From Diphasiastrum complanatum (lineage: Eukaryota; Streptophyta; Lycopodiopsida; Lycopodiales; Lycopodiaceae): 64,000 nt of DNA. Position numbers and translations under genes: made by a program. The stretch covers positions 43,277,054-43,341,053 of the forward strand of contig CM055109.1 of the NCBI GenBank assembly GCA_029204225.1, read 5' to 3'. The notes beneath the pieces are model-generated. The model made no database searches. It was not told the DNA's origin and saw only the letters and a program-made list of their open reading frames with translations. Positions 295-64,000 of the stretch are shown here, in pieces; the first letter of the stretch is position 1, and each line of letters opens with the position of its first letter.

Positions 295-1113
295 TGTGGG
301 GTCGAAGACCTCTTGTAGTATATCCCTTCATCTGTCAACAAGGGTTAGATCACTGGATAGGTACCTAACTATGCATAGATGCTACTTTTCATTAATTTCC
401 TACTTTCTCCCTTAGCCTATTCACCACTATGCTACTCCTCTTTAACTCTACCCCTCTACAATAACATTCATCATGGTTTTGGTTGAAGAGAAGGAATGGA
501 GAAGAAGAGATTGAGAAGATAAGAGAAAGAGAGAGATAGAGAGTGAGGGTGGAGGTTAGCTCAAATGCTCCTTATGCTTGCTAATGGAAAAGCATTCAGT
601 ATGGCAACCAATAAACACGGAAATAGAAAGCAATGGAAAATACATTTAAGAGCATTAGCAAGTAGTGAATAGCAAATGAGGATGTTTCTCTTCCAAAAAT
701 GGTAGAGTTTCCTCCTTCTCATTAAGCATGAAAATAGTGTACAAATGGTGCCTTTTTATAAAATGGGGAAGGCCCTTGCCCCTCAATCTTATTGGCTAAT
801 ATTCACAATGATCCTATCCATTCATCTTGGACCCAACTTGATCCAAGGGTCCACAAAAAGTACATTAGAAATCACAAGATTCATGTGAGTCCCAATTTGG
901 ACTCAACTCTAAAAAGTGATCTCTAAGTTTAAAAATGACATTGGGCCTCTAGTTTTATTTTAATTCCAAGGCCCAAGTCAAGTTTATTTTATTTACAACT
1001 TTAATTGTGTGCTCATTGGGCCATGGGCTTATACACGTAGGATGCCATGCCCTCGCAACACATTTTATTGGAGGATTTTATTTATTTACACTTTGTTGGG
1101 AATACCCCCAACA
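295..1113 (-). repeat. 5' LTR (family 1, copy A)
   Basis: On the plus strand the LTR begins TGTGGGGTC and ends CCCCCAACA, so on the element strand it has TGTTGGGG...CCCCACA ends with the usual TG/CA termini. A TATAAAA-like box lies near 757-763 on the minus strand. Most of its length aligns with 14449-15225 (copy B), which shows this is a dispersed repeat. Confidence 0.8.
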
Positions 1114-1922
1114 AATGGGCAAGTGGCACAGATGCCCTTCAAAGGATGCTATCTGAGAGCAGGGCATATGAGGCTAATATGTCGAGTGAGGAGGAGTTTT
1201 TGGCTTTTCAAAAAAAGTATCCGCCACCTCCCATATATATTATTCCAGCTAACCAGCAATCCACCATTATTGCTGGTCACAATTTAGAAGCTGTTGGTAT
1301 GAGGCAAGCTGACGAGGAGGATTTGATAAGTACACATTCTCATGAAAATCATTTACTATCTAACGTGTAACTAATGATTGATCTGCTAGTTTGACGAACA
1401 CTTGATTATGTGTTGTAGGATATCGTTGAAGTTGATGCTTTTGCTAGCAGGCATGGAGGATTGAGAGAGAGACAAGGTGGGAGACAGAAGGATGCCTCAT
1501 TGGCTCATTATTTGAAACATTTTGTAAATAACAAAATTTGTATTCTTCATGAAAGGTTTTTTGTGAATGCGGGAACCTTAATCATGGCCATCAAGGCCCT
1601 ATCTTATTTTGCCCAAGGGCATAAATATCCAAAAAATACATATAGGATCATTTTTGTCAAAAGAGATGTTGCTCTTAAAGTGTTCAATTACGTGTCAGAA
1701 AATGTTTCTATGAGATCATCTGCTCTGGCAATTCTATCAGGATATATAGATATGAGCAAAAGGCGATCCACTCGATTTTTGGATCCATTTGATAGGAAAA
1801 AGTTTATGACTACACAGCAAAAATTGTCCTTAGAGACAATGAAACAAAATGATTGTACTCTTTTCCATTTAATGTATGTGAAATTTGAGAATTTTTTATC
1901 ACACGTGTTTGATCTTTATTGA
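1114..1922 (+). pseudogene. Second gene of the two-gene unit, copy 1 (unknown function, 5'-truncated)
   Basis: Two exons are visible, about 1114-1334 and 1420-1922, joined by an intron with a GTACAC donor near 1335 and a TTGTAG acceptor just before 1420. Both exons have protein-level counterparts in 59122-59946 on the other strand. Shared features are a SEEEFL motif, a GHN segment, an HYLK-F-NN motif and a stretch MAIKALS followed by a basic, aromatic C-terminus. The upstream part corresponding to 59943-60634 is missing, cut by the LTR at 1113. The gene converges on the transposase-like gene, with 89 bp between stop codons. I recognise no domain. The conserved pairing with a transposase-like gene suggests an accessory protein, which is inference. 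Confidence 0.6.
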
Positions 1923-2011
1923 ATGCCATCAATCTAATTTTGGCTTATAAATTTACATGCTTTTTTGAATCTTTGATATTCAGTTGATCTTGTTGTGTAT
2001 CGAACTTGAGC

Positions 2012-4617
2012 TCATCTATAAAACCATTGGAATAGCTGAATAATGTAACTATTTTTTGAGGATGTTCCACCATGTTGTGTATTTCGATGAAATGCTGCTC
2101 TTGCCTGCCAATGTGATTTCTCCATTCCTTGTGAGGACAATATACTCAAACTGCCATACTTTTTTGCAAAAAATGATGCATGATGCCTTAGTATGTGCTG
2201 CAATATCAAAGATTCATGCATTGGTTAGAATCTATCAAACAAGTTATACTAAAATTATAAAATTGTAAGACACTATTCAAATGTATCTTACCATGTAGTG
2301 GGTGATGTGATCTGAGCCCCAAGCCACCCGAACTGCATCTACAACCTCTATTGTTGTTTTCTCCAAAAGGAGTGCATCTGCAAATGAAATTGTGTCTTTT
2401 CTAAGCACTTCAATCATATTATCGAGCTGTTTCCAAACTTCAACCTTCTTTACCCTTGTTGTTCCTTTATCTTCAAAGTCTTCTGTTGCAGAAATAACAT
2501 CTTTCCAAATCGAGTATTGGATCTTAGACGACTCTTTAGAATGATTTGATAAAAATCGACGAGCTTTGACTCCTCCTATGCTAGGTTTATTGGGTACGTT
2601 TTCTGTCTTTTCTGAAAGCTTTTCATCTTTTTGTATTTTAACATGGCCTTTATGAAGGCCTGCTTTTGACAACACTTCCTCTAATCGAGCGATTGCTTGT
2701 TTAGTGCGCCCGACCCAATCATGATGACTCTAGCTTAATATTCTATGCAAACAAGATATGAAAATATATTAATTTCTCTATGATCCTCATCTCTCTATGA
2801 AGTGTGCAAATATGCACATTTTGTAAAGGGATTGGTAGTACTGGTTTCTAGTTGGAATCTTCAATATCTCTTGAAACTCTTGTGTTCCTTGAAATGTCAT
2901 TTGATGATTTCATACAATATAGACATGGATGTTTCGAATTTGCTCCATGAGATACATTGAACATACATTTCAATGACTTCAAGTCTCCAGCTAAATGCCA
3001 TTCGACCAAAAATTCACCTCTTTCAGGAACACTAAGTACTTTGCCATTCATATGATCCTTTATGATATCTGGATAACTTGTTCTGCTAAAAATCCAGGAA
3101 AGAAAATTGTGATCCTCCTTGATAACATGTTCAACATATGGAATAACAAGTTTTTATGTATTCAAAACAATCACCAAAAGAAATTGCACATGAATAACTG
3201 TCATTTTTTACCTGAAAACATGCTAGCCACCATATGTTGTTTTCTGATTGGACACTGAAGTTGAGATCCCTTGAGTTTGTTGCATTGCTCAATGCTCCAT
3301 TCATGAGGGTAATACTTACTCTTTCCAACTTTTGTCCTTTTATATCTTTCGATTCATCTAGCTTGACCACCAAAATAAGTTTGCTCATACTAACACTTGT
3401 AATATTATAGAATTTCACTATAAATCTCAATAAATGATTCAAATCCACAAATAAGTTGCTGGTAGAATTATATGACAAATTTTTAGACTTTGAATTGTAA
3501 ATCTCGTTGAAGGGATTCCGATGACATTTTGCATACCCTTATTCAATACATCTCTCTCCAATCTTATCTGAAAAGGACGAGGAATGGGAAATTTTCTTAC
3601 ATGCAATTGTCCAAAAGCCTCTTTAATAATTTTAAATATACTGGCATATGCCTCCCTGCTAATACCTGAGAAATCACATGCTCCCTGAATTAACGTTCGG
3701 TCAATAACCTTACTGACCTCGTTCATCAAAGCCTCATTGACCTTGGACTTGATTCGAGAATACCGATTATTGTCCAATAAATACTTTGTGGACTTGGTTG
3801 TCAATACCGAACTTAGTCATTTTTTGATCAGGTCATTGTCCTTCAGATGCTCAGTTGCAACCAATGTTGATCTACAAATGATTATGAAAATCAAGAAACC
3901 CAAATAGGACACATAATAAATGTCATGCTACTTCACAAAACTAAGATAAAACTGATTCAAATCAAATCCTTACTTGAATGCTTGAATCTTTTTTCTCCGT
4001 TGGCCTCCATTTAGCGAAAGCTCATCAATGTCCTTCCGAATTTTTTTTCGCTTGTTTCTTTTTAATTTCTTATCTAGTATGCAAGTTTTTTCTTTTAACT
4101 GGTCATTTGATATACGTAATGTCTGAACAACTTGTCGGAATTGATCATTACTTGCATTCAAATTTAAGATAATATTATGTAAACGTGCATTATCTTCTTT
4201 TGTTTGTAATAATGTGGCCTCTTTTTCTCTATAGCTAGCAAGCAAACCATTTAACATACATTCTAAACTTTGTATTTTCTGAACCGCGTTTGCAACACCA
4301 TAAGTCATCAATCTTTCACAATAACCCAGTAAATCATTTTCTTAGTCACACAAAAACTTTACTAGTTGTGTGATGGATTGGAATTGTGGAGCTTGCATCG
4401 AGCTTGGATCCAATGGATACAAACTTCCGTCAATCCACAAATCGTAATTTTTTCTTTGGTTGATTCTGTGAGCGATCATATCAAGTGGAGAAAGTGTGGA
4501 TTCTTTCACTACTCCTCTTTTAGCTATTAGAGCATTCTCGGCAGGGAGAACAATGTGTAGATGAAACTGAGACATCTCCGCAAACATCAGCTGACAGACC
4601 AAAAAGAAAATAGACAC
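2012..4617 (-). pseudogene. DDE-transposase-like gene, copy 1
   Basis: A split gene. Exon 1 (4617-3974) has an N-terminal domain with a DLW...LYPLDP motif, then a coiled coil and a Lys/Arg-rich stretch (about 3990-4060) that may be a nuclear signal. Exon 2 starts at 3871. Downstream come an Asp in VVKLDESK (about 3365), an Asp in EWHLAGDLK followed about 20 residues later by CLYC (about 2910-3000), a long helical region (2277-2675) and a Glu in QGMEKSHWQ in the last exon (2197-2012). An Asp, then Asp with a CxxC zinc pair, then Glu recalls RAG1/Transib-type RNase H-fold transposases, but the assignment is inference. Defects: TGA at 3817-3819 and a frameshift near 3475. Copy 2 at 51181-59061 shares introns and motifs. 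Confidence 0.6.
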
Positions 4618-4900
4618 TAACTATTCTTCATCCATGGCGTACCTGAGATTCTATGTTTATTTTCTCTCTAGTTAAAACAAGGGACACAATCTCATTTTCA
4701 AATTTGAAAAAGTTAGTTAATGAGCGTCATAGGTTCTTGAAGTCGCAGTTGCATGCATCATAATCGTGTCCTGTTAACTACACATTACTAGTAAGGTTAA
4801 GCTAAACTGGACCTGAAAGTCCGTCGGAGTTTTAAAATCCGACATTTTTTTTGTCCTACGTGGCATTTCTTAGACGGCCCTTTTGATGTTTGTAACTCCT
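4618..4900. other. Non-coding stretch upstream of the transposase-like gene
   Basis: No open frame of note. It separates the first exon of the transposase-like gene from the truncated end of the copia remnant. It should hold the promoter and possibly the terminus of the two-gene unit, but I could not align it with the corresponding region upstream of copy 2 (50810-51180), so no terminal repeat can be claimed. Confidence 0.4.
4823..4843. repeat. Near-perfect palindrome
   Basis: Arms GTCGGA(G)TTTT and AAAATCCGAC pair perfectly apart from one unpaired G. It lies about 200 bp upstream of the transposase-like gene and about 60 bp from the broken copia end. It could be a subterminal or terminal motif of a DNA element, or chance. 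Confidence 0.4.
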
Positions 4901-7740
4901 CTAATGGCAGATATCAGGACGTGTAGTCATTAGATATATCAAACTCCCAACTAGCTGACAAAATAAAGTAGCGTCAACCTGTGCACTATCATCAACACGA
5001 GACAATTTCTTACCAGCTTTGCAAGGAGTGATGGAAGGTTTGCACTCTATCATGCAAAATATCTCTAATATCTCGCACACATACTTGCTTTGACATAGCT
5101 TGATATCATTGCCATTTTGCCATACTTTAACACCCAAGCAATAGTGCATAAGATCTAAATTTGTCATCTCAAATTGCTTGCACAAGTTGGCTTTGATAGA
5201 ATGAATGAGATTGTCATCATTTCCCGTGATAATAATATCATCAACATAAAGTACAATCAAGGCAATGCTATTTTCATTTATAAGAACATAAAGATTTGGA
5301 TCTGAATTTGTCCTTACAAACTCATGAGAAAGAAAGTAATGGTCATTTTGTCCATACCATGTAGGTGGCGCTTGCTTAAGGCCATAAAGTGCCTTGCGTA
5401 GCTTGCACACCTTATGTTCTTGTCCCTTTGCCATAAAGCCCTATGCTTGGACCATGTAAACTTCTTCCTCTAAGTCACCATTCAAAAATGCAGACTTCAC
5501 ATCCATTTGATGGATCTTTTACCCAAAATGAGATGCTAAGGTGATGATAAGGTGTAGTGTAGTCCACTTAGCCACTGAAGCAAATGTCTATTCACAGTCA
5601 ATTCCTTTGTTTTGCTCATAGCCCTTCACTACTAGGCATGCCTTATGCTTTGCTATCGTGCCATCCGCATAAAACTTTGTTCTTAACACCTATTTGTTGT
5701 CAATGGGTTTCTTTCCAAGTGGTAGATCAACTAACTCCCATGTACCATGCATGTGGATGGATTCCATCTCTTCTTCCATTGCCCTTTGTCACTCTTTGTG
5801 ATCCTTGGCCTCATCAAAGGTTGATGGCTCTCGACACTTCAAAATGTCACTCATTAGGACATAGTTCGCATGATAGCGATCAGGAGACTTCCTTTCCTGC
5901 GTTGATCTTCTCACTTCTTCTTGTGTGCTAGATCCTGGTTGATTTAACTTTGCATCCTTCGTGATCTTTTTGTACCATTTTGGTATCTTAGACTCAAGTG
6001 ATACACTTTGTGGAGAGTATGTGTCCCAAGGAGTGTCCAAGTAATGTCTCTTACTTCCAACCGGTTTCTCCTTTGTTTCTCCTATTGGCAAGTACCTTCC
6101 CCTAGGCTCTTGGATAGGTGGTGTCCTCTCATACTCACCTTCTCGACCTTCGTCTTCTTGTGCATCATCCTGTGGAGCATCTTCTTCATCTTCTTCTTCC
6201 AAGATTGTGGGAAGTCTCTTGATGCTTTCATCAGCTGCATGGTCTTTATCTTCATATATGCGTCTCATCAAAGATTACATCTTTACTTATGTTAATGTTG
6301 TTCATTACAAGATCAAGACATTCCCATAACACATCCTTCACATATGGTGTGATGATCATCCTGTAGAGCTGGTAATCTTGTTACCATCTTCAGCGTCACC
6401 ATCAATCTTAAGCTCTCATAGTTTAAGTGACCAAGTCTCTTGTGCCACAACTCAAATTGTAATGTTGTTGAGGTAGCCAAACCATATTCACCTGGTTTTG
6501 CAGCATCCAACTTATAAAGGCCACAATTACTATCCCAATAACCTTTCGCTACCACCTTATTGTTGTGGTCCATATTCTTCATTAGGCATCCATCCTTGAC
6601 AAATTCAACCTTGAGATGTTGATTTGCCATCACACCAATAGAAATCAAACTCTTTTTGAGTCCAGAAACATAATGCACGCTAGGGATATTCTTTATCTTA
6701 CCATCAAAAAACTGCACAGGTACATTGCCAACACCCTGTATTTGGCATTCCTCCCCATTGGCTTGTGTAACCTTGTCCCCATCATGGATTGGCGAGAATT
6801 TCTCAAACCAATCGTGTTTTCTAGTCATATGCCTTGTGGTGCCTGAATCTATGAACCATCTAGCACCATCATCAACCTAGGATGCCAATGTCGATGAGAA
6901 GACACTTGTCTTGTCATCTTTTCCATCATCTTCGGAAATGCTGCCTTGTTGCTTCACTTTTTCCGCCTTTATGTCCACTTTCTTCTTGTAACCAATGACC
7001 TGGTTTGTGGAAATAGTAACATTTGCTCTTCTTCTTCCTTTTTGCCTTCGATGATGACTCTCCCTAGTCATCATCATCCTTGGATTTCTTAGGAATCCTC
7101 TTCCACCCTTTCTGCTTGCCTTTAGCAAGCCATGCTTGATCATCCTGTGGGGTTTGCCTTGACTTCACCACCTCTCGATGTTGCTCCTCCTACAACATGA
7201 TCCCGTGCAAGTCTTCGAAAGTAGGCAATCTCTCCCTCGAAGCAATGCCACTCACAAACATTTGTAGGCTTTCAGAAATGCCACTCATAGTGTATGCACC
7301 AATTCACCATCCCTGATTGGTTCTCCAATTGCCACAAGTTGATCTCTCAGCTCCTTTATCTTGGTGAAGAAAGTTCCCACCGATTTGTCTTCTTCCATCC
7401 TAATTGTGTTCAATCTCGACTTCAACAACATGGCTCGAGCTGGATTGCAAGTTTTAAATTGTGTGATCACATGGTCTTTCACTAAAGGGTTCATCAAGGA
7501 CAATGCTCTCTGCGTCTTTTTATCAAAGGCCCTCATGTCACCTGGAGTAGTATTAGGCCGGACTTCAATGCTTGCAACAATGTCCCTTTAATACTCCTTC
7601 TCCATCAAAATGCTCTTCTTTTTGAATTTTCAGATGTTGTAGTTAGATGCCCCATCAAGTTTGCTTGCATCGCCCAAAATTGCTTCATTGATGTTTGTCA
7701 TTTCCAAAGTACTTGAATCTCCACCTGTAGGCTATAAAGT
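4901..7740 (-). pseudogene. Decayed Ty1/copia gag-pol remnant
   Basis: Read right to left. Gag starts near 7701, and a UBN2-like gag segment ends with an RxRLNTIRMEED stretch (7285-7536). A basic gag tail follows (6877-7143), then the protease C-terminal side and GAG-pre-integrase with a HKRLGHLNYESL motif and CEGC (6313-6828). The integrase core is missing: the frame jumps from CEGC to the linker upstream of RT (5789-6271). RT continues with ALYGLKQAP, YVDDIIITGND and LVGSLIYLMTTRPD (4901-5434) and stops there, so RNase H is lost. Several in-frame stops are visible. The element is therefore internally deleted, 3'-truncated and dead. Confidence 0.85.
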
Positions 7741-9200
7741 GTATGCCGAAGCCAACCATGATGTCAGAAATAAAAAATAATGACTTGCAATTTTTGGCTT
7801 ACTAGGCCACCCGCCACTTTTCTACCAAATTGAAAGCCAAATCGGCGTCGCCTTTTGAAATGCTCCTTGTCACCAACTCTCAACTATGTGCCCAATGGAA
7901 TGGTGAAATCACTTTTGGCATGCTCCAAACACTTTTTCCGTGGCAATCACTCTGTTTTGATGTACTGTACTTGCAGATACAGTCAGGGTGCCCTTCATTT
8001 GGAGGCTATAGCCTTTCGTTTGGCCCAAATAGGCTAAACGAGGTGAAAATAGAGGCACTTTTAGTTTTTGAACTATCTTTTCACCTTGAAAAGACTTCAC
8101 TCTTCACAAAAGTCAGGACCCAACTCCTATTTCAAATTTGAAAATTTTTAAAGAAGTTGAAGGCCCAAGTTTACTTCAATCCCTTGCAATTGAAGTTTAT
8201 GATGGATTTAAGGAAATCCAGTGGTTGTGGAAAATCCAATGGCCCACGTTGCTCTCTGAGCTCACAATCCCAGCCATTGATCCTTTGAAGATCAGATCTT
8301 GCGTCAGCAAAAAAATTTGTGCGCCCAAGCTTGCACTTCCATGCACTAGCCTCTTCTATGCACCAAAGCCCCACTTCTAGTCAACGCGCGCGAGCCTCCA
8401 ACACGACCTTCTCAAGGTCCTGGCTATGGAGATTGCAAAGGGTTTTAAAAGCCCACGACCTACAACACAAATTCTCACCTACAACTCTCCACGGCAGCCA
8501 ACAGCTGTCTGTAGCCAGATTACACCTACTAGGCCGCCCCTCCACAAGTTTTCACAGATTTGAAAAACATTGTGAATGGAGAAAGATCATTAATTTTCCT
8601 GGGCTTCTTGAACTTCTTGGGCTATGCTTAGGTTTTCTCTGAGCTACTTTTTGCAACCTTGTACTGCACTAAGGTCGCCCTATTGTAAGCTATCCACAAC
8701 TCTAGACGATTCCTGGAAGGATCAAGTATTGAGTGCATAGAAGATGCAAAAGCAAAGCTATCCTACGGAGTTTCAGACTTCTATTTAGCTTCCTTGTCCA
8801 CAATACAATTCTGAACAATTTCTTCGAATTTCCGCAACTCGATTTTGTGCTACCCACAGCTTCCAAAAAGCTTTTCCGTTAGCTCAAATCATTATGAATT
8901 CGAAATTCTCCGTCCTTGTCCGGTGATCACGGCCACCAAGGGCCCTGATACCAAGTTGACATTACGCTATAAAAACGATCAATTCAATTACCATAGCACA
9001 CCATCAAGTGCTTCAAGACAAGACAAGATGAAATTGCTCTCACACAACTATTTATACACAATACTTAGCAAGTACAAAGATAAAAGTGCTTAAGAGCACT
9101 CAAAGGGCTCGTAAAAGAAAGACGGCATGATAATTCTAGAACTGGGCACACGTGGTACCATCAAAATCAGAAAGCAGTGTATAAGTTGATCATTGACTAT
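7741..9200 (-). other. Leader, PBS and partial 5' LTR of the decayed copia element
   Basis: Between the gag start and the primer-binding site lies an unusually long leader (7741-8941) with no convincing gene. Its short ORFs have no family features. The reverse complement of 8942-8953 reads TGGTATCAGGGC, an initiator-tRNA-Met-type site. The LTR starts at 8957 (TGACATTACGC) and can be followed to roughly 9200, where the satellite array begins, so the LTR is truncated or interrupted. Confidence 0.55.
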
Positions 9201-24506: not shown

Positions 24507-24552
24507 TGTGAAAAATTGCCTACATTGGCAAATCTAGCCATGTGGAATATTG
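24507..24552 (+). repeat. Element B 3' LTR, left piece
   Basis: Identical to the first 46 bases of the 5' LTR at 19224. It breaks at TATTG (24548-24552), the target duplicated by element C. Confidence 0.95.
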
Positions 24553-25205: not shown

Positions 25206-25217
25206 TGGTATCAGAGC
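25206..25217 (+). other. Element C primer-binding site
   Basis: TGGTATCAGAGC immediately after the LTR, initiator-tRNA-Met type. Confidence 0.93.
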
Positions 25218-30412: not shown

Positions 30413-30417
30413 TATTG

Positions 30418-37163: not shown

Positions 37164-37175
37164 GCTCTGATACCA
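37164..37175 (-). other. Element D primer-binding site
   Basis: The reverse complement of the bases just left of the 5' LTR reads TGGTATCAGAGC, initiator-tRNA-Met type. Confidence 0.93.
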
Positions 37176-50803: not shown

Positions 50804-51180
50804 TTGGTGCCCATTAGAGAAAATATGGGCCCAAAGAGGGCCCTATAAGAAATGTCATGTAGGAGAGAGAAAAATAACTATAAAGTAATTATAATATCAT
50901 TTTCTAACTTCTTTACGCATATGCCCGCACCACTTTCCATGTAAATGAATGCACCTTAGTTTAGTCACATCAAACTTCACTAATGTTTAACCACAGTTAA
51001 AATATAATTTTTCAAAATGCTGAAATATTCCCTTCCAATAGTTGGAAACACTCAAAAATTTGAATTAGGAGTGACATTTCTGAAGAAAGCCTATGCCATC
51101 TCTATCTCCAGCAGAGTCGTTAGCGCCATCTCCAGCTTTGTTATTGTCATTGTATTGTTTGTTACTATACTACTGTACTG
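50804..51180 (+). promoter_or_regulatory. Upstream region of transposase-like gene copy 2
   Basis: Non-coding between LTR G and the ATG at 51181. It should contain the promoter and, if the unit is a transposon, its left terminus. No clear terminal inverted repeat against the far side was found by eye. Confidence 0.3.
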
Positions 51181-51889
51181 ATGACAAAGTTTTATCATCT
51201 TCATGTGGATCTGTCACCAGAATATGCTCCGCTTAGGATGAGATATTCAAAGCAACCCAAATTGTCAACTTCTGATATGGTCCGATACAGGGAGGAAAAG
51301 CTAAAACATGTAGATTTATGGTCATCAAGAACATTGTACCCTATTGATCCATGTTCATTGCAACATCAAGATTTTTATTCGGTGAGTCAGTTACTAGTCT
51401 ATATGTGTCATGGTAAAAATGGCCTTTTGGGTTACTGTGAGAATTTCATGCTCTATGGAAATGCACATTCAATGCAAAGAATACATTATTTGGAAGAGGA
51501 ATCAAGGAAAATATCAAAGGAGTGCGAAGAAAAATCTACAAAGATAAAAACTTGTTTGGATGAAAATGAGATGCTCAAAGAGGAGATCCAAAGGTTGAAA
51601 TCTTTTTTGCATCATTATATAACTAGTAATGATGAGATAAAAATTGCATTTCAATCCATGCGTATCTCATATTTGTCTCTTGTTAAAGATATGGATGTGC
51701 TCAACAGAAAGGTCCGAAGAAACAAGAGGAAAAGACTGGTAAACAAGGATATATGTGATCTATCATCCAGAGAGGTCATAGAAAAAGACGAATCTGTACA
51801 TTCAAGTAAGTTATAGCTTATTTGGTACTGAAAATTGCTTGAACTTTTTGATTTATTTATAATCACTAATTTAGTTATTTATTCAATTC

Positions 51890-52709
51890 TGTTGAATTTC
51901 ACACGTGTGGATTGTCCACTACATGTACTTGTGATCTTCTAAGGTGTGTAGATGCACCAAGATCAAGACTAGATTGAGATTCAAGATCTATCTTTGATTC
52001 TATGGCAAAAACACACTACTACATGCATTCAATCACTTCCAACTCTCACTCACACGTGTGGAAAGTGTTCCAAAAGTATTCTAAGTAAAAACAAGCTGCT
52101 CTCCTCGAGTAGAGAGAGAAAAACCATCAAGAGCTCTCGGGTAGAGAGAGAAAGCTAGAAATTCAATGACACTCAAAATCCACTCAATCTCAAAATCAAT
52201 TAGATCCAAAAGGAGGAGTACAATGATACTAATAGATTCATGAGCTACCACTATGCTTAATTATGATTGGATCACACTTTGCCACCTCTTAATCCTATTG
52301 GACCATTGATCCATGCACCTCTAAATTCTATTGGACTATATTCAAGCACACCTCAATTTTCTATTGGACCTCACAAGGTTCCACCTCTAAATCCTATTGG
52401 ACCTCTTAAGCTTCATCAAACAAAAGCATGACACTTGTCTACACTCTAATTGGCACAAGTTTGGCTCTATTTTGGCTCAATATTGGCATTACAAGTGGAA
52501 ATGGATAATTTGCCATCTATGCCAAATTTGACCCTATCAACATCCTACACCTAAATGCTTGACTATGAAATTCTATGAGACCCCTATATCAAACATTTTG
52601 ATTTACTTTACAATTCTCCACACGTGGGAACATCCTCCACACATGTGAGATTCACTTACAAACTTCTATCATAAAAAATAGCAAGCTAAATTTTTGCCAA
52701 TTTCTCACA
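51890..52709 (-). repeat. Element E 3' LTR
   Basis: TGTTGAATTTCACACGTGTGG...CCAATTTCTCACA. Contains two CACACGTGTG palindromes, near 51899-51909 and 52052-52061. Confidence 0.93.
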
Positions 52710-52836
52710 CTCCTCCTCAAAAAAATAGCTTGGAAAGGTACTAGATCACTTGAGAAGTTTGTAAGTCTTTTTGAGTGGATCCTTTGGTATGCATAAGAAG
52801 TGAAGATCAACCAAGGGATCCATCATAGCAGCACCC

Positions 52837-55410
52837 TCACCATATCCATGATAAGATCTCTTTGGTAGAGATCTCTTGCCAATGCCTTTGAAGAGTGCTC
52901 CACCAATATGCCACTATTATCATGGGTTTCCTCCATGCTTGATGATGATCTTTGCCTTGAAAGTTCCACTTGCATGATGGATGCACCATAAATAGAGAAA
53001 TCTGAGGCTTCCAAGCCTCATAAGGATCATGGAGATCAAGATCATAAGATGTGAAACAATGATGATTATCAAGCTTATGCTTTCTAGCTCGACTAGTCCA
53101 CATACAATGAACTATATCCATGATGGATCTAATCTTGATATCAAAGACTATCTTGATCTTTTTTAGGCTAGTTACTCTCTCAAGGATGTAAGTGTCCACT
53201 TTGGATGCTTCACTTAATCTCAAGAGGAGTTTACACTTTGCCTCAAAACATGTGAAAACATGATTTTCAAAAAAGTGAGTACCAAGCTCAATCTTGTTCT
53301 TACTAGAACCAAGAGCATACTTTTGACAATACAATATCTTGCTTTCAAAAAGTATTGGAAACACAACTAAGTCAATAATGACAAGAAACATGTCCATACC
53401 ATAAGCATCATACAAAACTAGTATAGCTTTTCTTGAACTTTGAGATCCAAAAAATTCAATGAAGCAAGATAGCATTTCAAGCAAAGGAAGAGAAGCATAT
53501 ATGAATGTGTTGTAGTAGATACAACATGAAATATGCCCCTCTTTGCTATGTAAGGTGAGCCATAAAGACTCGGCCATGCATCTTGAAGATCTTCTTGAAA
53601 TCATATGAAGAAGAAACTCCTCCTCACACATTGGCCCCATCATAACTTGAATACCTTCAAAAAGGATAACTTGTGATGCTTCTTGAGAAGCCTTGATCTC
53701 GGCCACTTCCAAGATTGAATCTTCATGCAATATGACATCTCTATTCACCATCACATTTGAAATAGAGAGTGTAAAGACACTAAAGGCCTCCTTGATGGAT
53801 GAGTATCCAATCATGATCCATGAGCTTGGATCATCCTTCCTTCTTGTTTCCAAGGGAATATGTGCAAAGCAAGCACTACCAAGTTCACTAAGGTGATCAA
53901 CCTTAGGCTTCATCTTGAATAAAACTTCATATGGTGCTATTTCTTCAAGAGCTCCAATACTCCTCAAAGCTTTGATCTTCAGTGAGAATTTCTTCTCAAC
54001 ATATGCTTTCAATAATAAGGAATAATCATACACCATAATACTTGAAGAGAGAAGATATGTGCATCTTGTGTAATCCTCCTCCTTTGAAATATTGGAAATA
54101 TAAGAAACATCAAGAGAGTTTGCACTCTCACTTGGATCCAATTTGTAGATGCCTTCAAATCTTGATCCATATGCAAGGATCTCACCATCCTTCTTAATCA
54201 CACAATTGTCAATATTGAAATGGACATCAAAGCCACTATCAAGAAGTTGGCCAACACTTAAGATGTTCTTTGTAAGCTTTGGGAAAAAAAGAACATTGTT
54301 GAGAAAGAGATCTTTAGAAGATGCAAGCTTCAAGGGAATAATCCCTACTCCTTCAATATTGCACTCATGCTTACTTGCAAAGTATATGGTCTTCTTGACT
54401 CCATCATAAGGCATAATAGATGAAAAAAAGTGCTTGGAGCCACACATATGTGAAGATGCTCCACTATCAATATACCATGAGTCATCCTTGTTGAAGGTGG
54501 AAGAGGAGAAGCTTGATGCCATAAGAGAGCCTTCTCCATCACTTGCAATATAGTCATCTTTCTCATTGGTGATGTTGGCTTGATTGAGTTGATTCTTCTT
54601 CTTGAAGCAATTGGTGGCATAATGGCCTTTCTTGCCACAATAAAAGCACTTGATCATCTTCTTCTTGAGATTTGAATTAGAAGCATGAGAGGTATCCTCC
54701 TCCTCTCCATCTTGGTCTCTAGCTTTGTCATTAGAGAAGTGATGGTGTTGCTTCTTACTCCTCTCTTTGTGCTTGGCAAATAGAACTTTGCCATCATCAT
54801 GATTGAGTGATAGCTTGTCCATCCTCAAGAGTTTGTACTCTTGTCTTGATTCTTCAGAAATAAGCACACTTTGAAGGGCCTCCAAACTTGGTAGCTCCTC
54901 CTTAATAGCATAGGATTGGACAAGGTTGTCATATTCATCTCTCAAGCCATTGAGAATGACTTGGACTAGCTCACTTTGATTGATTGAGTCACCAATACAT
55001 GCAAGCTCCCTATGAATATCCTTGACCCTCAAAACATAATTAGATGCACTCTCATCACTCTTTTGACTACTTTGGAATATTTGATTTCTAAGAGTGAGGA
55101 GCCTAGAGGTGTTCTTAGCCTCATAGATGGACTTGAGACAATCTCAAGCTTCCTTGGATGTAGAACAATCACCAATCTCCCTCAATATCTCATTAGAGAC
55201 ATTCATCTTAATGTAGTGGAGAGCCATCCTAGCTCTCTTCTTGTATTTTTGTACTTCTTGAAGGACTTGAGGCTCCTCCTCAATCCCAAGTACAATGTCC
55301 ATCACATCTTGGAGTATCAAGATGGACTCCATCCTCAACTTCCATATTGAATAATTGGAAGTAGACAATCTCTCACTTGGTTGCAACAAGTATGAACTCA
55401 TTGAAGTCAT
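52837..55410 (-). pseudogene. Element E gag-protease with scrambled pol
   Basis: ATG at 55410 starts a UBN2 gag (SERLSTSNYSIWKLRMESIL); one TGA at about 55143 stands where Trp is expected. The frame then stays open to 52837. The CCHC knuckle CFYCGKKGHYATNC (about 54620-54661) and protease DSGASSHM (about 54450) are normal. After the protease/GAG-pre-integrase linker the integrase core is deleted: a short YLLSS...KIKALRS relic joins directly to the integrase C-terminal region (APYEVLFKMKPKV...RRKDDPSS). Beyond the linker, RT is replaced by sequence without RT motifs, and only an RNase H-like relic (ELGTHFFENHVF) is suggested. Keeping a long open frame in rearranged sequence is unusual. Confidence 0.85.
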
Positions 55411-56155
55411 GTAAAGTGGAGATAAATAAAAGTGATGAACAAAAAATGTTGCTTCTCTCTCACTATAGGATCCAATAATGGTGTGCTACCATCTCCTATG
55501 CAAGATCTTGCAACAAACTGTGAGATGATACTCACTAGCTATCTCAATCTCTCCAAGACTAGATCTACTTCACATCAAATGATGGAGTATGGGCAAAGTT
55601 AGGATCAAACACTCTTAGCACGTGTTAAATACACTAAGAAACCAAATTTGACTCAAATACAATGATATTGCATGAAACAAAATGGCTAAGATCTCAAAAC
55701 ATTGCCTAGATCACATATAGATGAGATTGGTAAGCATTCAACTGTGATTTTAGATCAAACAAGCAATCTTTTGACCAAACCAAATGTGTCCACCCAGGTC
55801 TAGGTGCCCTACATAACCCTCTTCAAAAGCTTATAACTTTTGATTGGCTCAACCAAATGGAATGAAACTGATTGCATCAAAAACTAGACAAAAATAGCTT
55901 CAAAACAAGCTATCTAGCAAGATTTTTGGATCAAACATGAAAGAGAACTCCCAAACTGAAATTGGATTTTCCTCACACGTGTCTGAGCACCTGATTCCGT
56001 ATAGTACCAGGTCAGACCCAATCAATGTCCTTTTGATCTCTTTTGATCCAAAGTTGAACAAGATAGCTAGGAAAATGGGCCTTGACAATTTCTAGCTCAA
56101 GATTGATGAATAGTTTTCACTCAAATGGATCAAAATGCATGGTAACCTTAGGTAG
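55411..56155 (-). other. Element E leader
   Basis: Untranslated leader between gag and PBS. A CACACGTGT motif also occurs here near 55975. No gene. Confidence 0.5.
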
Positions 56156-56167
56156 GCTCTGATACCA
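56156..56167 (-). other. Element E primer-binding site
   Basis: GCTCTGATACCA is the complement of TGGTATCAGAGC, directly abutting the 5' LTR. Confidence 0.92.
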
Positions 56168-56987
56168 TGTTGAATTTCACACGTGTGGATTGTCCACTAC
56201 ATGTACTTGTGATCTTCTAAGGTGTGTAGATGCACCAAGATCAAGACTAGATTGAGATTCAAGATCTATCTTTGATTCTATGGCAAAAACACACTACTAC
56301 ATGCATTCAATCACTTCCAACTCTCACTCACACGTGTGGGAAGTGTTCCAAAAGTATTCTAAGTAAAAACAAGCTGCTCTCCTCGGGTAGAGAGAGAAAA
56401 ACTATCATGAGTTCTCGGGTAGAGAGAGAAAGCTAAAAACTCAATGACACTCAAAATCCACTCAATCTCAAAATCAATTAGATCCAAAAGGAGGAGTACA
56501 ATGATACTAATAGATTCATGAGCTACCACTATGCTTAATTATGATTGGATCACACTTTGCCACCTCTTAATCCTATTGGACCATTGATCCATGCACCTCT
56601 AAATTCTATTGGACTATATTCAAGCACACCTCAATTTTCTATTGGACCTCACAAGGTTCCACCTCTAAATCCTATTGGACCTCTTAAGCTTCATCAAACA
56701 AAAGCATGACACTTGTCTACACTCTAATTGGCACAAGTTTGGCTCTATTTTGGCTCAATATTGGCATTACAAGTGGAAATGGATAATTTGCCATCTATGC
56801 CAAATTTGACCCTATCAACATCCTACACCTAAATGCTTGACTATGAAATTCTATGAGACCCCTATATCAAACATTTTGATTTACTTTACAATTCTCCACA
56901 CGTGGGAACATCCTCCACACATGTGAGATTCACTTACAAACTTCTATCATAAAAAATACCAAGCTAAATTTTTGCCAATTTCTCACA
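56168..56987 (-). repeat. Element E 5' LTR
   Basis: 820 bp partner of 51890-52709. Differences cluster around the CTCGGGTAGAGAGAG segments. Confidence 0.93.
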
Positions 56988-59121
56988 ACTTCAACTTTCT
57001 GTTGATTTGCTTATTATATATTGTTGTGAATACTATGAGTGTCCTAATTTCTACTGACATTTTCATGAACATTATGTTTGCAATGCAGATCAGCATTGGT
57101 TGTTGAAGACCATTTGGCCGATGAGATTTCAATTGGAAACTCACTAGGCTCTATCTTGACTTCTAAATCTATGAAATCAATGTTAAATAATAACAAAATG
57201 AAAAAGATTAAGTCTTCAGTTACTGATAGCATTATGGATGAAATTGGAAAAATATTAGACACTACATTGCTTCAAGGGGAATGTGACTTTTCTAGCATCA
57301 GTAGGAAAGCATATGCAACAATGTTTAAGATGATAAAGGAGGCATTTGCACAGGTAAATATTAAAAAGTTTCCAATCCCATGACCATTTTATCTTTAAAA
57401 AGAAAAAGACATGTTAAACCATGGTATGCAGACAATAGTTGGTAATCCATCTCATATTAATGAAGTGTATTGCTCGAAAGGAGAAAGTCTAGCATATAAC
57501 AATTCCAACTATTTATTTATTGACATTAATCAGTTATAAACATTCATCATAAATTTTTATGGTATTACAAATGAGAATGTCAATGATAAGTTTTGATAGT
57601 TGTTCTCAAGTTAGATGAGTCTAAAAATATAAAAGGACAAAAAATGGAAAGAGTCAGTCTCACAATCATGAATGGATCACTTTCAAATTCAGAGGACTCA
57701 AAACACCTCAATTTCAGTGTTCAATCAGAAAATGATATCTGGTGGTTGGCAGCATTTCAAGTATAGTAGTCCTTTCGCATAATAAATAGGGATAATCATT
57801 TGAATATGGATTTCATATCTAGAATTTTTTTTGTGTTAATATTATGAGGCTAATCACGTTTTTGTATTTTCTTATAGGTGCTGAAAGAAGACCATAGCAT
57901 TTTCTCATGGATATTTAATAGAACATCATATCCTGCCACCATAAAAAAATCACATGGAGGGAGTTCCACTCAATATTCCTGGAATTGGCACTTTCAACAT
58001 TGAATGGCATTTAGCAGGAGATCTAAAGAAATTAAAATGTATGTTCAATGTATCTCATGGCGCCAACTCTAAACACCCTTGTTTGTACTGCATGAAAACA
58101 ACAAAAGACATGACAAGGAGTACAAGAATATCAAGAGATCGAGAAGGTCTTAATTGGAAACCTCTACTATTGATTCCTCTACGAAATGTTCATATCTGTA
58201 CATTGCATGCGGAGGTGCGTATTATAGAAAAAATAATATATCTTCACATCTTGTTTGCATGGAATTCCGAGCCAAAGGCCTCTGCAAAGGAAGCTATTTC
58301 CATATTAGAGGATGTGTTGTCCAAAGCAGGCTTACATAAAGGCCATGTTAAAATAAAAAAAGATGACAAGTTATCAGGTAAAACATGAAATATTCCATGC
58401 AAGCCGAACATTGGAGGATCTAAAGCTCGAAGATTTTTATCAAATTATTCTGGCAAACAATCTAAGGTTCAATATACGGTTTGGAAGGAGATTATTGCAG
58501 CAACTCAATATTTTGAAGAAGAAGATTCTACTCGTATACACAAAGTAGAAGTTTGGAAAAAGTTAGACAACATGGTGAAATACTTGAGAAAAGATAAATT
58601 TTCAAATATTGATGTTCAAATGATACAGAAAACAACCAATGAGTTTGTGGATGCAGTTCAGAGTGCATGGGGTGTTGATCATATAACACATTATATGGTA
58701 AGATTTTGATTTTACACTACCATAGACAAATATGTGCAATTAAATTAGATACTTTTGGTACTGATTTAGATTGTGTTTTTATGACATGCAGCACATATTA
58801 TGACATCATTCGACATTCTTTGCAAGAAATAGTGAAAGTCTTAGCATATGGTCATCGCAAGGAATGGAAAAATCTCATTGGCAAGCAAGAGCGACATTTC
58901 ATAAAAGTACACAACATGGCGGGCCTAGCACAAAAAATAACTATATACTGCAACTTTTCCAATGGTTTTACAGAAGAATCCAAATTCGTCATAATACAAA
59001 ATCGACGGATTATAAAAAATTTCAAAAAGCATGCAAATTTATACAAGCCAGTAGGCTATAGTCAGACAATAAAATTTTGTATATTAAATAAAAATATTTA
59101 CAAAGTACAATTCAGCAGTAT

Positions 59122-60634
59122 CTAATATGCTTCCGATATTTTTTCCAATGAAAATTGCAACTTAGAATCATGCAACAATTTTCTTCTTTCGTATGGATCC
59201 AATAGCTCATAGTTTTCATGCTTACTAAGATCAACGTAAGCAGCATACACTGCAAAATAAGATGATCTGAGCATGGAATTCATTGGTCCATATCCTAAAA
59301 TTTTAACCGCAATAGTTTTCTTTACAAAAATTATTTTATGCACCTTATTAAAATTATGTCCTCCAAGAAAATGAGACAGTGCCTTGATTGCCATAATCAT
59401 AGTTTCACCATGTTGATGAAGCTTTGAATGGGCAACACTTATCTCATTATTCTTGAAGGACTTTAGATAGTGCCCGAGTGAATGATCTCTTGAAAATTCT
59501 CCCGCAGAAGATCTTTGCCCTCCTCGACGAATTGCGAAATCATCAAGGAAAGTTGTTTCCTGAAATGATAAAAAACAAAGTAAGCTCTAGTATATAATCT
59601 GACATAAAAAATCTACTAGTACTTGATAAGAGACAAAACTTACGCATTCGGCTTTGTCTTCTCTAATTACTGTCTCACCATCAATATTATGTCCACCTTT
59701 TGATGTCAATATTGTTGGTGAATAGACAGATGGTTGTGGAAATCCAAGTTGACTTTGGATTCTAAGAAACTCCTCCTCAGAAGGCAGATCATCTTCTTTG
59801 TTGCGCATTTCCTCCACAGCCATTTTCAAGCAACCTTTCCCTAAATAAAATCTATCATTATGTATATCGTCGACACCAAGGAGAATATCATCAGTATCAA
59901 AATCAATAATATCCGAAAATTTATCAAGCTCTTTGTTCAAAATCAAAGAGTCTCAGCTTCAGTGAAGTCAAAAAGATCCGATATATCCGATATTGTCAAA
60001 AAGAAATTATTATCTATATTATAAGTAGGCAAAGTGATCAAACATATATCAGAAGGAGAAAGGGTGGTGGGTGTTCTAGGGCCTATAAAGATAGATCTAT
60101 TTTGAGCAGGATCAAAATCAGAACAATCATCTAAATTAACACTCGTATCAATAAAAAAGATTTCTATATCTACAATCTTTGACTTTTCAGACTCTGTACC
60201 ACTAGAAGAAGCTGTTTCAGAAGTGGAGGGCAAAGAGTCCGAATCGTCAGAAATATTTAATAAAAAACAAAAAACAAAAGCAGACTGAAATCAACAAATC
60301 TACAATTTTTAGTATGAATTGGGCACTCATCTACAAACTTGAAGTCATTATGCTTGGTAAACATTATGTCAAACTTAGTTTTATAGATATGCTTGTCTAG
60401 TGCCACCAAGTCCTGATAATGAATCATGTCTTTATTCTGAGACCTAAATAACGGAATAGTGAGCAGGAACTTAAATCTGAGATATATCTCAGAAAATACC
60501 TCCACACCAGAGCCCTCAGTTATAGAAGGTAGAATAAAAAGAAAAGGAGAAAAAAGAGATTTGAAATAGTCCAACCCATCAGTAAGACCAAATTCATTAA
60601 AAGAAGAAACCAAACTGGATTCAAAATTAGACAT
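59122..60634 (-). pseudogene. Second gene of the two-gene unit, copy 2 (unknown function)
   Basis: Start at 60634 (MSNFESS). A first block to about 60257 is hydrophobic then mixed. A second block (60260-59943) is Ser/Glu-rich with SDDSDSLPSTSE followed by KIVDIEIFFIDTS, resembling the acidic plus hydrophobic pattern of SUMO-interacting motifs. A one-base shift at about 59943 leads into DFDTDDILLGVDD...SEEEFL, ending at a GAATGC|GTAAGT donor (59644). The last exon (59559-59122) has the HYLK-F-NN and MAIKALSHF motifs shared with copy 1. The junction between the first two blocks is not resolved. It converges on the transposase-like gene with 60 bp between stops. No known domain; an accessory or DNA-binding role is a guess. 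Confidence 0.55.
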
Positions 60635-61756
60635 TTTAAACAAAAATAACAGAACTGAAATTCCAAATATCGCTCTCAGGTGCAAACACCAGGTCAGACA
60701 AGCAAGTCCAGTCAACGTGCGCTCGAAAGAGATATTGGAAGCTGGAGTATCGGATCCGAGCGCAAGAATAATGAGCAGGAAAGAAAAGGGATACGAAACG
60801 CGCTTGAATGCGATACAAGAGGATGTAGTATCGGATCCAGGTGCATAATAGTCAGCGACACGTAATGAGAGCAAGCGATGCGCTTGAAATCGATATCCGG
60901 CAAAGCAATCATAAATTTGCAGGAAAATTCGAGCCGAAAAATACCTATTTATATAAAAAAATTTGCACGCGTGGAGAAGTGGCGAAGGAACATGTGTCGA
61001 CATGTGATTGGCCAAAATAAATGCATCGTACCTTGAATGATTGATCTGACATTTGTCACGTGCGCGAATGACATGCATCGTCAAGGGATTCACGCACGTG
61101 TCACAGCCCACGTGTCCTTATAATATGATCATCATTGTCAGTACGGACATTCCACGTGGACTAATCATCAGATGACACGTGTCTCAAAAATTCATTAAAA
61201 AACGAGAGCAAACTGGATTCAAAATTAGACATTTTAAATAAAGATATCGCTCTCAGGCACAAACCCCTGGTCCGACAAGCACGTCCAATCAACGAGCGCT
61301 CGAGAGAGATTTTTGAAGTTGGAGTATCGAATCCAAGCGTAGAAACAACGACCAAAAAAAAAAAGGTATGTGAGACACGCTTGAATGCGATACCGGACGA
61401 TGCAGTATCGGATCCAGGCGCATAATAGCCAACGAGTTGTAATGAGAGCAAGCGGCGCCCTTGAAATCGATATCCGGCAAAACAATCTTGAATTTGCATG
61501 AGATTCCGTGTCCAAAAAGATCTATTCATAAAAATTATTTCTCACGTGTGGAAAAGTGGCGAAGTAACACGTGTCGACTTTTGATTGGCCAAAATAAATG
61601 CGTCGTATCTAAAAGAATGGATCTGACATCTGTCACGTGCAAGAATGACACGCATCGATCAGGGATTCGCGCACGTGTCTCAGCCCACATGGCCTCATAA
61701 TTGGTATATCATAATCAGTACGGACATTCCGCGTGGTCTAATCATTTGATGACACG
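60591..61756. repeat. Tandem duplication of a promoter region
   Basis: Two units, 60591 to about 61190 and 61191 to about 61756, match along their length with moderate divergence. Each includes an initiation site (MSNFESSL-S-FNEF), about 300 bp of 5' leader and a distal part with CACGTG elements. The distal copy thus carries a second ATG that opens only a short frame. Confidence 0.85.
61056..61181. promoter_or_regulatory. Cluster of CACGTG (G-box) elements
   Basis: Five CACGTG hexamers in about 125 bp (near 61058, 61085, 61100, 61153 and 61176), several extended to ACACGTGT or CCACGTGG. Four more lie in the sister unit (near 61547, 61569, 61638 and 61673). In plants this core is bound by bZIP and bHLH factors. 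The cluster lies between the two divergent genes. Confidence 0.6.
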
Positions 61757-61995
61757 CTCTTTCATCCTTCAAGCATCCGTTCTCTCATAGTGCGCTTGAG
61801 TCCGATACCGCCTGCTATGCAATATCGCTTTCAAGCGCACATCCCTTTTTTGCATATAATCTCTGTAGATCTTGTGTTCAAAACCGATATTCAATGCTGG
61901 TATCGATCTCAAGTGCCCTTTCGTCGCAAATTTTTTTGTTTTGATCCACTTTTGTTTATTTCAAACATCTTTTTGCTAATTTTCTTCTTCCGAGA

Positions 61996-64000
61996 ATGAT
62001 GGCCAGGACTAAATCCACCGCCTGTGCCATCACCACTGTACAGCCATCCCATTCTTGTGTTCCCCCTGATAGTGGCCGTAGGCATGGCAGGAAGCAGGTC
62101 TGGCTTACGGAGATCAGAAAACTCCAAAGATCAATTGAATTGTTGATCCTAGAGCTCCTTTCGGCCGATCTATCTGAAATGTCACTCTGTCACATGGGCT
62201 TGATGTTCGTTTTGCCATAACAGCCATGCAGGCCTTGCAAGGTGCTGCAGAAGATTTTTTGTCCCAATTTTTTGAGGATACTTGTCTTTTGGCAGTGCAT
62301 GGTAAGCGTGTCACCATCATGCCGAAGGATTTCGTCATTCTCAAAAGGCTTCAGGACAGATATTCTGGTCTTCATGTAGATAATGCCAGCACCTCCAGAA
62401 ACCTGTCTCTGGATAGAACCGACGTGCCGACTACCTCTAGGAGGAAGAGAAACCAGGTTGTCCCCAAGAAGGTTGGATCTCGAAGGCCAGCTACTTCCCT
62501 TCCTCCTAGACGTATCCCGGCCAAAAGACCCCGTGTCATCTTGAGCTCTGAGTCAGATGCTGGAGAATCTGACTCAGATCGAGAATCTTCACCGAGTCTT
62601 CCTCCTCTTATTCGTCCAGCTCCTCAACAGGTTTCATCACCAAAATTGTTGATTACCCAAGAGGAGCTAGACAAAATAACAAAGAAATCTGTAAATATTG
62701 TTTCCACTTCTCTTTCTGCCCCTCATGTACATAGTCTTTTTGTGAGAATTCCATACGATCCAGCCTAGGTTTTTTTTTATTTTGACCATTATAATCAATA
62801 CGAGGCCTAGCTAGCTAACAAAATTGATCTTCTCGGCAACTTTTTTGATTTTCTTCTTTCAGATACACGTAGAAGCTTTAGATTAGGTCCTAAATTTTGT
62901 GCCGAGCTTAAAGATAAGACCTCAAAAATTTCAGATGCAATAGTAGAGGCCGATGTTTTATTTTTGCAGAATAGTATTAGTTTCGATTCCCATGGTACAG
63001 TTTTTGTAGTTAGTCCATTTTTCATGGGAGCGATAAAGGCGATAAAAGCCAATTTTGAGAAGACTTTTTATCGAGTCCAGTCATATGGCGAAATTCTATT
63101 TGATTCCATATGAAAATAGGTAAGGATTGTTCTTTTGTTTTTGTTGCTTTATTTTGGATTGTTGCATGTCTCATTGCGTTAATAAGAATGAAATTTTTTC
63201 ATAAATATGAATTTATTGATATTTGTATCTTGGTTGTTGCAGTCGGCATTGGAACCTCAAAATTCTTTTTGTAAAGATAAATAAGGAGGGAGTATCAAAT
63301 TTTCTATGTGTAAAATTAAACTCAGCTGCAAATACACATAGAGAATTTGATTCTCTATTTCATGATGTCGTTCGGAAAATACCGACAATAGCAACTTCAA
63401 TTGGAGATATAACCATCAAATCTCTGAAGGTATATTCAATTTATTTCTGATATGCATGTATTCCTTTTTTTAATCAAATGTATCGTCATACCATAATCAT
63501 AATATTAGTAATTTTTGTTCTCTATATGCAGTGTGTACAGCAGAATGACGCTTTTAGTTGTGCATGGTTCGTCTTGTACAATACGAAGCTATTTTTTGAG
63601 TGGTATAATTTATAAATGGATGTAGATATTGAAAAGGTAATATTCTATTCATTTGTAGTTCATTTCATTTCATTCCTATTTATTAGAATTATTGTTTGTA
63701 ATTTGCTGATTCTCGTGTTTTGTGATGACAGTTCACTCTTGAGCCATATACTCCTGATGATGTATATATATTTTGACAAGAGTTGATCAGAACCTTTGCC
63801 CAGTACGGTATAAGCATTGTACCTGCAATCGAAGGCCCTCAAAAGGAATCTGCTCCTGCCTTAACAGCCTTTCAGGTTATTCAAGATGCAGATCTTATTT
63901 TATATGATCAAAAAGGAATAAAAGTCCTTCCTAATACAGAGGAAGGCAATTTTGTAGCAGATATTCCTCTTGTCTTAAAAGGCATTGAGGCCCTTCCCAA
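61996..64000 (+). pseudogene. Histone H3-like domain followed by Ulp1-like protease exons (3' end beyond window)
   Basis: ATG at 61996/61999. The N-terminus reads ARTKSTA like the H3 tail (Lys4 kept, Lys9 lost), then LTEIRKLQRSIELLI (alpha-N helix), a one-base shift near 62195, then DVRFAITAMQALQGAAE, FFEDTCLLAVHGKRVTIMPKD (alpha-2/alpha-3), with a basic, then Ser/Asp-rich tail to 62768. After a TTTCAG acceptor, an exon from about 62862 reads DAIVEADVLFLQNSISFDS-GTVFVVSPFF. The next (63241-63428) has RHWNLKILFVKI. The next (about 63532-63640) has VQQNDAFSCAWFVLYN, matching the His and Gln/Cys motifs of C48 proteases, with Asn where Asp is usual. A further open exon starts at 63732. In-frame stops occur after ILFDSI, after FFEWYNL and near 63775. 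Histone homology is clear; the protease call and one-gene model are inference. Confidence 0.55.

Follow-up and report, generated by a model that had tools for sequence, protein, structure and literature searches.

Why would two genes that face each other stop codon to stop codon be found twice, in inverted orientation, within one short stretch of a lycopod genome? The stretch in question, here called the window, comprises 64,000 nucleotides of Diphasiastrum complanatum (GenBank assembly GCA_029204225.1, contig CM055109.1; C18:43277054-43341053) in a 1.74-Gb genome of 5176 contigs, the single genome analysed; C-numbers denote contigs and L-numbers, such as L010, L027 and L051, individual genomic loci. 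The original prediction, made from the sequence of the window, held that a transposase-like gene (A) and a second gene (B) form a mobile two-gene unit with an accessory protein. We are very confident of a larger answer: the pair belongs to a DNA transposon with terminal inverted repeats (TIRs) that carries four genes (A> <B C> <D), inserts without a target-site duplication (TSD), and has as its gene C a histone H3 joined to exons resembling Ulp1/C48 proteases. B, C and D, together with the H3, recur in a second, diverged family, and the H3 is under selection. For what the H3 may do for the element we propose a more tentative answer.

The gene pair as part of a longer element

Two convergent A/B pairs are indeed present in the window, inverted and about 55 kb apart. 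As predicted, their gene structures match: exon order is the same in both, and the gene A motifs KLDES, AGDLK, HPCLYC, HICTLH and QGMEKSHW are common to them. Between copy 1 and copy 2, gene A is 67% identical at the DNA level over 1.8 kb, and for gene B the main coding exon shows 41% protein identity; what had been described as one unit present twice is two related pairs from two distinct families. The predicted spacing of 60 bp between the stop codons was borne out in copy 2 (59061/59122). The 89 bp given for copy 1 was not; it fits an in-frame A stop at about 2011, and the homologous end of A, as aligned with copy 2, lies at 1934-1936, about 11 bp from the B stop at 1922.

The A/B pair is real but makes up only the left half; the complete TIR DNA transposon has two further genes, C and D, and a simple two-gene element was ruled out once the right end had been located. 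For the family of copy 2, 20 copies of about 10 kb each were fetched, making 21 with copy 2 itself. Left edges, where present among the fetched copies, coincide at CATTAGAG; after four copies had been extended, the right edge common to L024 and L027 read ...GGGCTCTAAGTTTCTCTAAT(G), the final G being absent in L027. The element thus has the ends CATTAGAG...CTCTAATG, which form an imperfect TIR of 35 bp with 26/35 positions identical, and measures 8.4 to 8.9 kb in four copies (L016, 8.4 kb; C2:45.47, 8.5 kb; L027, 8.7 kb; C1:33.13, 8.9 kb). Between the ends of L027 the genes lie in the order A(+), B(-), C(+), D(-), about 1 kb of the 5' part of A being missing in this copy.

The element is abundant. 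The left-end pattern, with 0 to 8 free bases, occurs 586 times genome-wide and the right-end pattern 349 times, each against 0 for its control. Searching the genome with gene B of copy 2 returned 8116 first-look candidates, and each of the 150 scored had E < 1e-79; gene B of copy 1 returned 7463, and the 150 scored were 63-100% identical, a span that shows that several families exist. Among left ends, the first 100 listed are distributed along C1-C4. Of the 39 right ends listed on C1, 19 cluster at C1:48.4-50.2 Mb, where no left ends were listed; 17 of the 19 share a strand, and the cluster is perhaps a tandem array or a centromeric satellite derived from the element's right end.

That A and B are two unrelated genes, or products of a segmental duplication, and do not move, has practically no probability left: it is refuted by the 586 left-end matches, by unfilled insertion sites (below) and by the thousands of first-look gene candidates. 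Neither an isolated two copies without definable ends nor homologous flanks were found. Copies 1 and 2 share no flanking homology within the window, which together with the high copy number rules out segmental duplication. The predicted mobile element with an accessory protein is supported by its copy number, its definable inverted termini and related retrotransposon copies lacking an insertion at the same site, although the single accessory protein gives way to three further genes beside the transposase-like one.

Insertion without target-site duplication

Eight left/right end pairs, in matching orientation and less than 15 kb apart, were drawn from the first 100 ends listed for each pattern, and L016 and L027 were added; the paired ends span 6.1 to 14.1 kb. 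Target duplications had been suggested as a feature to look for at the element's edges, and in 9/9 readable pairs there was none, with chance matches of one or two bases in three. The tenth pair, that of L027, is inserted in a (CT)n run, so its junction is unreadable. Insertion of a TIR element without a target duplication is uncommon.

Since the pairing of ends rests on distance and strand, tests at the junctions themselves carry more weight. Two unfilled sites were found, both in related retrotransposon copies of the same genome. The joined flanks of the C3:62.0 insertion give an ungapped 118-base alignment to retrotransposon sequence both at 54098-54215 of the window (96.6%) and in L015 (94.9%), and the joined flanks of L016 form an uninterrupted Copia reverse transcriptase frame (CKWIFKIKYNANGAIDRRKARL). 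Insertion at these two sites therefore neither gained nor lost bases. The joined flanks of C2:45.47 gave a weak match (68%, E 7e-4) that is ungapped over the junction. Other candidates for unfilled sites were set aside: the match of C1:33 to L034 is that copy's own right end, that of C1:95 to L026 extends just 12 bases to the left of the junction, those of C3:49 to L012 and of C2:45 to L016 are gapped, and that of C3:62 to L029 reaches 79%.

The right ends of L016 (C8:9.30 Mb) and L024 (C8:8.38 Mb) lie at the identical codon of a Copia reverse transcriptase, which reflects either a duplicated insertion or a preferred target.

Gene C joins a histone H3 to a protease-like part

The start of gene C encodes a divergent histone H3 (Pfam Histone, 8.9e-24; H3 in the PDB, 3.4e-20), with the histone fold, the H3 helices and the motif KRVTIMPKD; the H3 of locus L083 matches H3 in the PDB at 4e-26. 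In the L024 copy the H3 has two further Pfam matches, one above the cut-off (CENP-T_C, E 3.5e-07) and one below it (CENP-S). A basic linker follows the H3, and the exons after it contain RHW...KLNS and CVQQNDAFSC. In copy 2, gene C (61996..64000, + strand, continuing beyond the window) has an H3 that occupies 61996 to about 62390 and is disrupted by one stop and by a frame break near 62134; the linker and the Ulp1/C48-like exons follow, with RHW at 63244 and CVQQNDAFSC at 63532.

Whole or partial, the H3 was found in 15/21 copies of the copy-2 family. The remaining six (L012, L015, L018, L020, L026 and L028) lose homology to the element, or have it rearranged, before the H3. The H3 lies inside the element ends in L027, in L016 and, by coordinates, in C1:33126502-33135397 and C3:37047800-37058529, and gene B likewise lies between the paired ends, by coordinates, in C1:33.13, C3:37.05 and L016. 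A second family, L051 on C21, known from its B-C-D part, has these genes in the same order and orientation. Its H3 is 41% identical to that of the copy-2 family, and against L027 or copy 2 its gene B is 33-48% and its gene D 41-49% identical. Relatives of the L051 H3 were not found in IMG/VR. A dense cluster of L051-like H3 copies, many with an open frame of 171 residues, was seen at C3:18.5-30.2 Mb.

A second high-copy H3 lineage was observed about 23 kb left of the window, in L084 (C18:43251700-43253900) with L069 (C18:43253730-43254260) and their relatives L052-L068 and L070. These H3s have the N-terminal sequence MARTKQTARRNP, a low-complexity tail of about 300 residues and a C-terminal histone fold, and 19/20 non-host places read from a search with canonical H3 were of the L084 type.

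The H3 tail keeps K4 and lacks K9

The canonical H3 tail reads ARTKQTARK(9)STGG. In five groups of the H3s studied here K4 is kept and A, L, P, G/V or R stands at position 9: the tails read ARTKSTARA in the copy-2 family, VRTKQTARL in L051, ARTKQTARP in L083 and ARTKQIARP in L071, ARTKQTARG (V once) in the L072-L082 group, and ARTKQTARR in L084. K4 is present in 13/13 in-frame copies of the copy-2 family and in 11/11 of the L072 group, and position 9 is never K in these 24, nor in L051, L071, L083 or L084. A fourteenth copy-2-family row, L010, is out of frame at the chosen start and was excluded from this count. L072-L083 are 12 of 150 places and were chosen for open frames, so this sample is biased toward intact copies.

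The pattern MARTKxTA(R), searched genome-wide with no such picking, gave 836 starts against 0 for the control; it also admits Ser at codon 8 and misses MV-starting families such as L051. A K codon at position 9 was present in 26/836, and 24 of these 26 belong to H3 loci whose identity to canonical H3 is 81% or more; one of these loci (C11:49645785) has two stops. Outside those host H3 loci, 810/812 starts lack K9. The sole two that have it, C1:40570870 and C17:25721131, are identical to each other. Alignment of the tails becomes barely possible past position 8; over K14-K36 the tail is shortened or unalignable, this stretch being missing or replaced. Judged at K4, K9 and K27, the tail thus keeps the first, has the second replaced in five groups and lacks the region of the third.

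Selection on the H3 was assessed from nonsynonymous (dN) and synonymous (dS) divergence. The mean pairwise dN/dS came to 0.62 (0.37-0.97) for the copy-2 family (seven copies) and to 0.48 (0.19-1.25) for the L072 group (11 copies); decay after insertion moves such pairwise values toward 1. For the copy-2 family against L051, dN was 0.52 and dS saturated, and across the six pairs of four groups dN was 0.31-0.52 with dS saturated in 6/6. Divergence of this kind between groups points to long-term purifying selection as what has kept the H3, a conclusion that these alignments support well.

A family-specific site array between B and C

The spacer between the divergent starts of B and C carries an array of 16-bp sites, TATCGNNYTCARGCGC. 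In copy 2, 14 sites (at most two mismatches) lie at 60668..61916 (strand not assigned), partly within a tandem duplication (60667-61179 / 61244-61756); these are all the sites in the window, against 0.29 expected. The same spacer holds 7-16 sites in each of six copy-2-family copies, copy 2 included, and L027 has one extra site outside the element. The L051 and copy 1 stretches contain none, the spacer of copy 1 lying outside what the window retains. A second candidate spacer motif gave no match.

Copies in the window and the remaining genes

Copy 2 (50812..64000, + strand) begins with its left TIR, CATTAGAGAAAATATGGGCCCAAAGAGGGCCCTAT, at 50812..50846 (+), which is identical at 26/35 positions to the reverse complement of the L024 right end. 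Its homology to other copies runs beyond the window to about 65340 and then breaks off, and no right end turned up in the 10 kb that were read past the window. Its gene A (51154..59061, +) is spliced, with exon 1 at about 51154-51810 and further exons from 57087. Between exons 1 and 2 lies a foreign 5.1-kb long terminal repeat (LTR) retrotransposon (51890..56987, strand not assigned) with LTRs at 51890-52709 and 56168-56987 that are 99% identical, flanked by aattc and acttc, with one mismatch.

Read by eye, exon 1 of copy 2 gene A contains coiled-coil-like and basic stretches. The shared motifs follow at 57611 (KLDES), 58002 (AGDLK), 58074 (HPCLYC), 58191 (HICTLH) and 58852 (QGMEKSHW). For gene A, Pfam returned no transposase; with E values up to 10 admitted, the sole family was RRM_fung at 0.056, below the cut-off. 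No relatives of gene A were found in IMG/VR. We infer that A is a DDE-type transposase. Gene B of copy 2 (59122..60634, -) is convergent with A and has one intron near 59560-59650; in L027 it forms a stop-to-stop frame of 523 residues, intron included, and no Pfam match was obtained for B. One exon of gene D matches TMEM215 at 0.034, below the cut-off, and the other pieces of D searched had no Pfam match.

Copy 1 (1113..4906, -) represents a separate family of the same kind. Its left end, CATTAGAGGAG, at 4906 (-), is related to that of copy 2. Its gene A (1934..4602, -) is degraded, and its gene B (1113..1922, +) lacks the 5' part, the copy being truncated at about 1112 by another repeat (354-1111) that matches 14445-15223 at 77%. 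Two further loci of this family were examined: in L012 its protease-like exons follow an internal deletion, and in L050 gene C is interrupted by a Copia element.

Several LTR retrotransposons are present in the window. Retrotransposon-like stretches at 24552-30413, 31402-37830 and 51890-56987 have terminal repeats that are 99-100% identical and are therefore very recent insertions. A tandem array with several copies 82-87% identical occupies 9199-11369.

A possible role of the H3 in escape from silencing

The selected retention of the H3 is well supported by its divergence; how it would serve the element we infer as follows. The H3 of gene C would be expressed, processed and built into nucleosomes over the element. 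With a tail that has the K4 end, no methylatable K9 and no K27 region, such nucleosomes would resist heterochromatin marks. The 16-bp spacer array could be the docking place of an element protein (B, D or A), which would confine the effect to the element, and the protease-like domain might free the H3 or strip SUMO from host silencing factors. That the whole chain holds, with the transposon supplying its own K9-less and silencing-proof H3, we regard as a tentative reading which falls somewhat short of being probable.

A number of observations weigh against this proposal. Within families, dN/dS is only moderately below 1. The absence of K9 could stem from a single ancestral loss followed by drift, as the varying residue at position 9 might indicate, and K4 could be retained for another use, for example for readers of the H3 N-terminus; L071 and L083, moreover, have K at position 10. 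Element context was read for the H3 of two groups, the copy-2 family and L051, and the L071/L083 and L072 groups are known by H3 alone; since the L084/L069 lineage looks different, not all of the 836 starts come from this element. No H3 was seen in the family of copy 1 itself, gene C being deleted or interrupted at the two loci examined, L012 and L050. The protease-like part matches Peptidase_C48 (PF02902) in a joined gene C product over the stretch RHW...FSC at E 0.003 and 17.9 bits, below the cut-off of 20.7. A second joined query, itself chimeric, gave no Pfam C48 match, and phmmer with gene C found no protease in the PDB. Finally, the CENP-T_C match of the L024 H3 also fits a centromeric reading.

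The H3 might instead be a chromatin-aiming or centromere-like part which, incorporated into nucleosomes or bound to H4, guides the transposase to particular chromatin. LLIP at helix 1 and RW in loop 1, which we take to be CENH3-like signature residues, would fit an origin from CENH3 and are present in 4/4 and 3/4 of the aligned H3s, respectively. Besides the CENP-T_C match, the clusters of right ends on C1 and of L051-like H3s on C3 point the same way. The first 100 listed left ends, however, are spread over C1-C4, and the best 60 PDB matches are all H3 types, with no CENP-A among them; we consider this account unlikely. Quite unlikely, in our estimate, is that the H3 would act in the transposition complex, wrapping or protecting the element DNA or standing in for nucleosomes on the excised element, with the absent target duplication reflecting an unusual chemistry. 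The retention of an H3 beside a transposase-like gene and the clean insertion sites agree with this, yet Spy elements also lack TSDs and, to our knowledge, carry no histone. Very unlikely is a mere passenger, a host H3 captured once by transduplication and of no function for the element. Such capture has a precedent in hAT elements of Pyrenophora and Pseudocercospora, as far as the consulted sections of those reports go. It is disfavoured here by the saturated dS, at a dN of 0.52, between two verified families whose H3s are 41% identical, and by the conserved K4 end, the fusion of the H3 to a second domain and the same gene order in both families.

Extended to a whole superfamily of plant DNA transposons, the anti-silencing proposal would have each element wrap its chromatin in an H3 of its own making, with K4 present and no methylation possible at position 9, an immunity through a structural protein instead of an enzyme that would be renewed in each family by changing site arrays. 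This broader statement is more speculative than the chain on which it builds. Transposon anti-silencing is known to work through enzymes and sequence-specific proteins; a self-supplied nucleosome part, if true, would be a different route. At 586 left-end matches and thousands of first-look candidates, the element could also alter host chromatin. No plant transposon encoding a histone H3 was seen among the titles and abstract openings listed in literature searches, which reached few subscription papers.

Comparison with known systems

Several transposon classes were considered and rejected. Helitrons have no TIRs, end in TC...CTRR and encode a Rep/helicase protein; the present element has TIRs, and no Rep or helicase match was found in the pieces of A, B, C and D searched. 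Spy, a member of PHIS, resembles it as a DNA transposon without a TSD. Spy inserts between AAA and TTT, a target seen in none of the nine readable junctions. In plants, the TSD of CACTA elements is 3 bp; neither a short TSD nor the CACTA/CACTG termini of CACTA/EnSpm were found, the ends here reading CATTA.

DDE transposases of the CMCT group have C(2)C and H(3-4)H motifs before the last E, according to the sections consulted (PMC12730594). HPCLYC and HICTLH of gene A fit these motifs in both copies of A in the window, an assignment made by eye and with no Pfam match, and suggest a relation to this group (CACTA/EnSpm, Mirage, Chapaev, Transib, Plavaka). Because the CACTA terminus and TSD were looked for and not found, we do not file the element under CMCT.

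Epigenetic proteins have been recruited by other DNA transposons. The same source describes, in the part seen, TET/JBP genes in fungal elements and SET genes in oomycete Harbinger and MuDR elements (PMC12730594). These encode enzymes that edit marks, whereas the protein here is a structural histone without the markable residue. VANDAL elements (MuDR/MULE) with their VANC protein are likewise plant DNA transposons with a proposed anti-silencing protein and with motif arrays that differ between related families. In the sections of the report consulted, VANC targets are often tandem repeats that vary among related elements, which the family-specific spacer array resembles (PMC5735166). Pfam searches of the element's proteins gave no MULE or VANC match, and anti-silencing here would act via a histone.

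In fungi, hAT elements with a captured H3 provide the nearest precedent. Histone H3-like genes are carried by hAT elements of Pyrenophora tritici-repentis (PMC3538342) and of Pseudocercospora fijiensis, the latter with an 8-bp TSD (PMC6710886). These too are TIR DNA transposons in which an H3-like coding sequence has been amplified by transposition. From what the consulted parts of both reports state, the fungal H3s are near-identical between copies or killed by repeat-induced point mutation, and are treated as transduplicated (PMC3538342, PMC6710886). The fungal elements carry the hAT dimerization domain or DUF659, and those parts mention no protease. A Pfam search of gene A found neither domain, and the 8-bp TSD, like any other, is absent. 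Compared with the fungal elements, the transposon described here has four genes and old, diverged families, and its H3 is under purifying selection and has lost K9.

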